Assembly: GCF_000633935.1 (NCBI RefSeq)
Contig: NZ_KK214998.1
Location: 805,844-869,843, forward strand
Direction of reading: 5' to 3'
Length of the DNA: 64,000 nucleotides
Source: Ectothiorhodospira haloalkaliphila ATCC 51935
GTDB lineage: Bacteria; Pseudomonadota; Gammaproteobacteria; Ectothiorhodospirales; Ectothiorhodospiraceae
Shown: piece after piece, positions 11,049 to 11,354 of the stretch
How positions within the stretch are numbered: the first letter of the stretch is position 1
How the letters are laid out: every line of letters starts with the position of its first letter
Translations under genes and position numbers: made by a program
The notes under the pieces: model-generated
Told to the model about the DNA's origin: nothing
Database searches by the model: none
What the model saw: only the letters and a program-made list of their open reading frames with translations

Positions 11049-11080
11049 GGTGTTCACCTCGCTTGGATTGAGGGGGTATC

Positions 11081-11096
11081 TGCATCTTGCGTGCCA
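11081..11096 (-). promoter_or_regulatory. Sigma-54 promoter of the rnf operon
   Basis: On the minus strand the 16-mer TGGCACGCAAGATGCA has the -24 GG and -12 GC with exactly 10 nt between them and a complete TGGCAC -24 box. It lies 33 nt before the rnfA start codon. Activation would come from NifA bound at 11172-11187, about 90 bp upstream. Confidence 0.8.
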
Positions 11097-11146
11097 AGGG
11101 GGATGCACTCTTTAGGCGCACCCTTTATGGGGATTTGCGGCGGGCG

Positions 11147-11163
11147 TGCACCATGATGGTGCA
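11147..11163. promoter_or_regulatory. 17-bp perfect inverted repeat in the rnf/nifL control region
   Basis: TGCACCAT, one central base, ATGGTGCA: an uninterrupted 8+1+8 dyad lying 9 bp from the first NifA site on its rnf side. Its form suggests an operator for a dimeric regulator; which one is unknown. Confidence 0.45.
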
Positions 11164-11171
11164 GTGGGTGC

Positions 11172-11187
11172 TGTGAGGATCGCGACA
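11172..11187. promoter_or_regulatory. NifA upstream activator site 1
   Basis: TGT, 10 nt, ACA (TGTGAGGATCGCGACA), the classical NifA enhancer. Its centre is about 91 bp from the rnf sigma-54 promoter and about 126 bp from the nifL one. Confidence 0.75.
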
Positions 11188-11211
11188 GGCAGAGCCGCCG
11201 GTTCACCTCGA

Positions 11212-11227
11212 TGTGAGGTAACCGACA
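11212..11227. promoter_or_regulatory. NifA upstream activator site 2
   Basis: TGT, 10 nt, ACA (TGTGAGGTAACCGACA). It shares the TGTGAGG half with site 1, 40 bp away (close to four helical turns). Its centre is about 86 bp from the nifL sigma-54 promoter. Confidence 0.75.
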
Positions 11228-11297
11228 ATGCCTCCACCGGGAGCCATGGGGCCTGAGGGCAGTATTCCGAGTGAGAGGGCGGTATCAGGGTGATGTA

Positions 11298-11313
11298 TGG
11301 CCCGGCTCTTGCA
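11298..11313 (+). promoter_or_regulatory. Sigma-54 promoter of nifLA
   Basis: TGGCCCGGCTCTTGCA: GG and GC separated by 10 nt, with a TTGCA -12 box. The nifL ATG is 42 nt further on. With the two NifA sites upstream it predicts autoactivation of nifLA. Confidence 0.75.
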
Positions 11314-11354
11314 TTAGTGAAAGTCACACAGCTGCATCGCCACGAGACCTCGCC

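Follow-up and report, generated by a model that had tools for sequence, protein, structure and literature searches.

The window, a 64-kb stretch of Ectothiorhodospira DNA, carries an rnf operon that adjoins nifLA in divergent orientation, and the same arrangement was found in 107 of 141 nifL loci. rnfA, the first gene of the rnf operon, is encoded on the minus strand at 10467-11048 (TIGR01943, 273.8 bits, over the cut-off), with a GTG start at 11048 chosen on the basis of the sequence itself and of the N-terminal matches found in relatives. nifL (11355-12923; ATG at 11355; TIGR02938, 679.3 bits) and nifA, which encodes the NifA activator (12943-14511; TIGR01817, 699.9 bits, over the cut-off), lie on the plus strand. 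Since the two start codons are at 11048 and 11355, the gap between the divergent genes comprises 306 bp, 11049-11354, and the original prediction that rnfA and nifL flank this region was borne out by the family models together with the start codons. Curated models confirmed RnfA, RnfB, RnfC, RnfD, RnfG, NifL, NifA, and NifB in the window, and NifL is 95% identical to the NifL of E. marina DSM 241. Ectothiorhodospira is a purple sulfur bacterium, and both NtrC (747 bits) and RpoN (498 bits) are encoded in the genome.

The region was compared across two sets of nifL loci. The first comprised 91 loci, of which 84 remained after removal of seven duplicates and 70 after a further 14 without a divergent rnfA within 900 bp had been dropped. 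The larger set comprised 141 loci (150 minus nine duplicates), namely 107 with a divergent rnf operon, 22 without rnf, four with rnf in tandem, and eight ending near contig edges. The 107 rnf-divergent regions formed 36 clusters by blastn. The rnf gene that faces nifL was rnfA in 102 of them and rnfG in five; 23 of the 107 had first been labelled rnfE, and in all 23 the rnfA query scored higher at the same place. Five of the 14 loci dropped from the first set, which are of Rhodocyclales type (L094, L097, L105, L109, and L110), were counted among the 107.

Predicted sigma-54 promoters in the gap

A predicted sigma-54 (-24/-12) promoter of rnfA lies on the minus strand at 11081-11096 (TGGCACGCAAGATGCA), with the GG-N10-GC box present, and a predicted sigma-54 (-24/-12) promoter of nifLA lies on the plus strand at 11298-11313 (TGGCCCGGCTCTTGCA), with one mismatch to the 15-bp consensus. 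The corresponding transcripts would start near 11070 and near 11324, respectively. The sigma-54 consensus and the scoring weights used here are our own assumption; by these weights, the rnfA box is the best sigma-54 match in the 64 kb, and the nifL box is joint second. Among the 107 rnf-divergent loci, a box scoring at least 0.8 was found toward rnf in 104 and toward nifL in 88. In the nine Ectothiorhodospira compared, column conservation was 0.97 for the rnfA box and 0.86 for the nifL box, with a baseline of 0.66 for the region and 0.39-0.76 for the five gaps between elements; the diverged stretch (0.39) adjoins the nifL box, and the other gaps were at 0.63-0.76.

Two other strong sigma-54-like boxes of the window are located at 40002-40017 and 50228-50243. 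One of them immediately precedes a gene for an FlbD-like activator (below the model cut-off), and the other is some 550 bp upstream of fliM, in a flagellar cluster (fliF, fliG, fliI, fliM, flhA, and flhF); no TGT-N10-ACA was found within 1.5 kb of either. A scan with what we take to be the IHF consensus gave two one-mismatch matches in the gap (11077-11089 and 11283-11295). Matches of this kind were at chance level in the window (28 found, 22.8 expected) and were not used as evidence for an IHF site between activator site and promoter.

Predicted NifA sites and NtrC-type palindromes

TGT-N10-ACA is given as the NifA site in the available excerpt of a study on Pseudomonas stutzeri (PMC2820453). 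Two such sequences, predicted NifA upstream activator sequences 1 (11172-11187; TGTGAGGATCGCGACA) and 2 (11212-11227; TGTGAGGTAACCGACA), lie in the gap with no strand assigned, and their conservation in the nine Ectothiorhodospira was 0.90, with an invariant GGATC core, and 0.82, respectively. The original prediction had named these two sites along with the two promoters; all four elements lie exactly at the coordinates given, and both sites are perfect TGT-N10-ACA sequences. A single TGT-N10-ACA is uninformative, because the count in the window equals the chance expectation (nine found, 8.9 expected), and density in the window was rejected as evidence. The 3.45-Mb genome holds 217 such sequences, and at this density the probability of two within 306 bp is about 2e-4. 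TGT-N10-ACA was present in all 70 divergent rnfA-nifL intergenic regions of the first set, whereas other spacers from 5 to 16 gave 3 to 17 of 70, dinucleotide shuffles a mean of 5.5 and a maximum of 11 of 70 (100 shuffles), and the nifL coding sequence 4 of 70. Conservation of the elements in relatives, which had been put forward as a check, was thus far above the controls.

Only two TGT-N10-ACA pairs less than 60 bp apart occur in the 64 kb, one in the rnf-nifLA gap and one in the gap between nifA and nifB. The latter pair (14513-14528 and 14537-14552) is followed by a sigma-54-like box at 14613-14628, as expected for a NifA-driven nifB.

The rnf-nifLA gap holds a third input that was overlooked in the original prediction, two NtrC-type palindromes that match TGCAC-N7-GTGCA, which we take to be the NtrC consensus. 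Putative palindrome 1 (11104-11120; TGCACTCTTTAGGCGCA) has one mismatch and putative palindrome 2 (11147-11163; TGCACCATGATGGTGCA) is perfect; neither is assigned a strand. They are 43 bp apart, with the rnfA promoter on one side and the NifA pair on the other. Palindrome 2 is 73 bp from the rnfA -12 box, and the distances of the two palindromes to the nifL -12 box are 157 and 200 bp. Palindrome 2 is one of seven perfect matches in the 3.45-Mb genome. Four of the seven are intergenic: one precedes glnA and has a sigma-54-like box a short way downstream, one precedes ntrB-ntrC, one lies in the rnf-nifLA gap, and one is located some 80 bp upstream of a gene for a TorF-type porin, downstream of which there is an ammonium transporter gene. 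The remaining three fall within open reading frames, namely groEL, rplR, and one in L001 that matched no family. Because the motif stands before glnA, ntrBC, and the porin/ammonium-transporter locus in a genome that encodes NtrC and RpoN, it is very probably the NtrC box of this organism.

In the nine Ectothiorhodospira, palindrome 2 was found with at most one mismatch in all nine (conservation 0.87) and palindrome 1 with at most two mismatches in seven (0.70). Palindrome 1 is the weakest part of the region, since its conservation is near the regional mean of 0.66. In the first set, a box with at most one mismatch occurred in 38 of 70 intergenic regions, compared with a mean of 1.75 and a maximum of 6 in 40 shuffles, none of 70 in coding sequence, and 0 to 11 of 70 for other spacers (4 to 11 tried). 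With up to two mismatches allowed, 59 of 70 regions had a box, and so did a mean of 18 of 70 in shuffles; because such boxes are frequent in shuffled sequence, only counts at no more than one mismatch were used. We hold with high confidence that the NtrC boxes in the gap are real.

The NifA sites go with rnf

TGT-N10-ACA was present in all 107 nifL loci with a divergent rnf operon but in only 7 of the 22 without rnf (Fisher 1e-14, kinship ignored); it was also found in two of the four loci with rnf in tandem and in five of the eight ending near contig edges. For rnfA lying apart from nifL, we searched eight genomes whose nifL lacks a neighboring divergent rnf (two of them have rnf in tandem); two of the eight gave no rnfA match. 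In the six others, the nif-type rnfA that does not face nifL (71-82% identical) had TGT-N10-ACA within 500 bp in every case, and five of these genes also had a sigma-54 box between -51 and -70. Second rnfA copies (62-66% identical), on the other hand, had the sigma-54 box in none of five and TGT-N10-ACA in one of five, 433 bp away; the second copy in the organism's own genome has neither a sigma-54 box nor a NifA site and only an NtrC-type palindrome with two mismatches. Nine weak rnfA matches (L148-L156, 35-51% identity) without any of the elements were not counted as second copies. The site thus travels with rnf, and the link between Rnf and NifA drawn in the original prediction is strongly supported.

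Spacing points in the same direction. In the window, the centers of the two NifA sites lie 97.5 and 137.5 bp upstream of the -12 box of rnfA, within the range of about 80-150 bp expected for a NifA-dependent promoter, and 92.5 and 132.5 bp from the nifL -12 box. Across the nine Ectothiorhodospira, the distance from the rnf-distal site to the rnf -12 box was 137.5-139.5 bp, a spread of 2 bp, whereas that to the nifL -12 box was 65.5-153.5 bp, a spread of 88 bp. It had been proposed that one pair serves both directions symmetrically, on the ground that each promoter has its nearest site at almost the same distance. The distances of about 91 and 86 bp are correct if the -12 box and the near edge of the site are taken as end points, but apart from this species only its closest relative among those compared (L007) shows the near-equality. 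As the distance to nifL varies by 88 bp within the genus, equal spacing was rejected as evidence for a shared enhancer; the distance to nifL drifts while that to rnf stays fixed, and the near-equal spacing is therefore accidental. Because the site goes with rnf and its spacing to rnf is rigid, the TGT-N10-ACA pair is predicted to be chiefly an enhancer of rnf, and we regard NifA control of rnf as very likely.

The sites, their conservation, and the going of the NifA site with rnf are observations on the sequence. The seven rnf-less nifL loci that still have the site (L161, L163, L165, L167, L181, L194, and L195) count against the assignment to rnf. Two of them (L161 and L163) have a sigma-54-like box on the opposite strand as well, and the one upstream frame considered for each of the other five encodes a DUF3604 protein, AdoHcyase, a DUF928 protein, NifU, or, in one case, a protein without a family.

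Variation in the arrangement was also seen. In the five loci L094, L097, L105, L109, and L110, rnfG faces nifL, and a sigma-54 box in each direction and the NifA site are kept; inspection of L097:706-2508 by eye gave the gene order rnfG, rnfE, a small gene, and rnfA. In L041, L063, L190, and L191 (among them Beggiatoa sp. and Thiotrichaceae records), nifL does not face rnf but follows rnfE in the same orientation.

A probable two-input region and its alternatives

Our preferred reading, which we consider probable, is a two-input, two-promoter sigma-54 region in which the NifA pair serves rnf and NtrC acts first on nifLA. From the elements described above we infer which protein binds each site, which promoter NtrC targets, and the order of events. 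Upon nitrogen shortage, phosphorylated NtrC would bind the palindromes and would most likely be the first activator of nifLA, from sites at a distance similar to that in Klebsiella. The NifL-NifA system would then switch on rnf and the other nif operons. Since the TGT-N10-ACA pair is the predicted NifA enhancer of rnf, NifA bound there would make the Rnf electron pump together with nitrogenase. NifA at the pair may add some self-activation of nifLA, as a side effect and not as a conserved design. Of the regulation first proposed for this region, the connection between Rnf and NifA is thus retained and the symmetrical sharing of the pair is not; that proposal had also missed the NtrC palindromes, which offer a simpler first activator of nifLA. 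That NtrC is the main activator of nifLA seems likely to us. The lowered nifL and nifA expression of a P. stutzeri ntrC mutant and the effect of exchanging the P. stutzeri gap, both described below, speak for it, and the constitutive nifLA expression reported for A. vinelandii speaks against it.

This last part of the preferred reading was examined through the position of the NtrC box. A box with at most one mismatch was found in 41 of the 107 rnf-divergent loci (45 sites) and was missing from the other 66. The distance to the rnf -12 box was 72-75 bp for 37 of the 45 sites, 82-85 bp for three, 30-32 bp for four, and 371 bp for one, the sites at 30-32 bp being the second site of some Ectothiorhodospira, while the distances to nifL were scattered. 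Counted by clusters, 12 of the 36 have such a site, and in 11 of these the best one stands 72-85 bp away from the rnf -12 box, compared with 118-214 bp from nifL (eight clusters with a usable value); the spacing to rnf is kept in distant beta- and gammaproteobacterial lineages while that to nifL drifts. The action of NtrC on nifLA is weakened as a reading by this pattern, because the box is not tied to nifL. Helical phasing between NtrC box and rnf (Rayleigh R 0.834, p 1e-4 without the outlier; 0.724, p 9e-4 with it) was rejected, since R was similar, 0.79-0.84, at every period tried from 9.5 to 11.5 bp; only the tight spacing is retained. A simulation with uniform positions was set aside as a source of probabilities, because it ignores shared ancestry.

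The fixed spacing raises the alternative that the NtrC palindrome serves mainly rnf, together with NifA, and that nifL is driven by NifA or another factor. We find this rather doubtful. In the available excerpt of a study on P. stutzeri, an ntrC mutant had nifL at 0.13-fold and nifA at 0.16-fold and reduced rnf, and putative NtrC sites were placed at nifA and rnfA (PMC8443478); the loss of rnf expression would fit direct action of NtrC but could be indirect, through NifA. In the present comparison, 24 of the 36 clusters have no site with one mismatch or fewer, and a best site with two mismatches, which 13 clusters have, stands at 72-85 bp in only three. Nor does the box follow rnfA where this lies apart from nifL: a near box was found in none of six, the single box with at most one mismatch (L140) being 363 bp upstream. 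Furthermore, the box weakly accompanies a good nifL sigma-54 box (33 of 40 loci with an NtrC box and 41 of 67 without; p 0.03, kinship ignored), and the fixed spacing to rnf may be inherited and not selected.

A related possibility, which we put forward tentatively, is that rnf has a two-key promoter at which NtrC docks 72-85 bp from the -12 box and acts with or against NifA. If this is true, Rnf output would depend on general nitrogen shortage as well as on NifA, and in Ectothiorhodospira NtrC at 11104-11120 could hold rnf back until NifA accumulates.

Among the 22 rnf-less loci, an NtrC box with at most one mismatch within 700 bp of nifL was found in one (L120). Among the rnf-divergent loci, such a box was missing from 11 of 11 Chromatiaceae, ten of which have a nifL sigma-54-like box of at least 0.8, and from 18 of 19 loci of one further subset. 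The window has the -24/-12 box and the palindromes of an NtrC-activated nifLA promoter of the Klebsiella type, but as the box was found in only 1 of 22 nifL loci without rnf, we do not file it as a proven member of that class; that the box should go with nifL is our own criterion and not a published one. In L120, from a genome without an rnfA match, a perfect NtrC palindrome is located 342 bp upstream of where the nifL match starts. Farther out, about 1.1 kb upstream of nifL and past a frame that matched no family, an ETF-domain gene resembling fixA (L120:975-1925) occupies the opposite strand; Fix may stand in place of Rnf there.

The model of the original prediction, in which the NifA pair serves both promoters about equally and NifA is the main self-activator, appears unlikely. 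Both promoters are of the sigma-54 type with the pair between them, and the NifA site-to-nifL spacings found here fall in the working range of such sites. In the 50 loci outside Ectothiorhodospira and Chromatiaceae, the distance from site to nifL had an interquartile range of 64.5-66.5 bp, and lineages without a good NtrC box often keep a nifL sigma-54-like box beside the pair. Autogenous control of the Klebsiella nifLA operon was also reportedly described by Drummond in 1983. The drift of the site-to-nifL distance within one genus, from 65.5 to 153.5 bp, speaks against a pair shared about equally, as do the 15 of 22 rnf-less nifL loci that lack the site, even where a nifL sigma-54-like box is present (for example L118, L157, L159, L160, and L134). 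The model would further leave the NtrC palindromes unexplained and would require NifA before NifA is made. Tandem NifA sites have been predicted before both rnfA1 and nifL in Azoarcus BH72, according to the excerpted text (PMC3916325), which favors the shared pair. Self-activation by NifA as the main route to nifLA expression is, in our estimate, similarly improbable. That nifLA is constitutively expressed from another promoter, the nifL sigma-54 box being a relic or a chance match, is very unlikely: NifLA of Azotobacter vinelandii is described as constitutive in the available excerpt (PMC11509896) and the nifL-ward box is weaker and less universal than the rnf-ward one (88 versus 104 of 107), but it is conserved (0.86) beside a diverged stretch (0.39), and nifLA of P. 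stutzeri is nitrogen-regulated through the rnf-nifLA gap, as far as the excerpted account goes.

Relation to known systems

Divergent rnf and nifLA operons and the control of rnf by NifA are already published. According to the available part of a review (PMC6490700), a divergent rnf operon accompanies nifLA in most groups, and NifA controls rnf1 in A. vinelandii, P. stutzeri, and A. olearius. In P. stutzeri, both rnf and nifLA are listed among putative NifA-sigma-54 operons in the excerpted text (PMC2820453), and nitrogen control of nifA transcription was suppressed when the gap of another species was put in place of its own rnf-nifLA gap, as reported in the available excerpt. The arrangement and its regulatory logic are therefore known in kind. 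Like the present locus, the rnf1/nifLA regions of A. vinelandii, P. stutzeri A1501, and Azoarcus olearius BH72 diverge, and NifA and sigma-54 elements are predicted for both operons of P. stutzeri A1501 (PMC2820453). Unlike here, the available parts of the accounts of these three organisms contain no comparative assignment of the NifA site to rnf and no description of an NtrC box at a conserved spacing to rnf. What the present analysis adds is such an assignment of the NifA sites and the observation that, of the 12 clusters with a good NtrC box, 11 have it at a close spacing to rnf.

Two other systems resemble the locus in part. In Klebsiella, nifF is driven by NifA and nifLA by NtrC, and the divergent nifF and nifLA promoters are reportedly the subject of studies by Minchin in 1988 and 1989. 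There, too, an electron-supply gene faces nifLA and sites for both activators lie in one region; it encodes the flavodoxin NifF, unlike the Rnf complex here, and the site spacings differ. The activation of Klebsiella nifLA by NtrC is also stated in the excerpted P. stutzeri study (PMC8443478). A second likeness is the nifA promoter of Herbaspirillum seropedicae, which is reported to have NtrC and NifA sites, a -24/-12 element, and autogenous activation. This promoter was reportedly treated by Souza in 2000 and by Wassem in 2002. To our knowledge, nifA of H. seropedicae is not divergent with rnf, and there is no nifL there. Among the matches listed in a search of the open-licence literature by titles and the starts of abstracts, we found no paper on the Ectothiorhodospira rnf-nifLA region, which is weak evidence of absence.

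Electron supply is a limiting cost of nitrogen fixation. On the question of why rnf so widely adjoins nifLA, the available part of the review offers a hypothesis only (PMC6490700). The comparison presented here gives a testable answer, namely that the NifA site belongs to rnf and that the common gap puts the NtrC input near both operons. For engineering, these findings suggest that swapping the gap as if it were a plain nifL promoter might alter the control of rnf.
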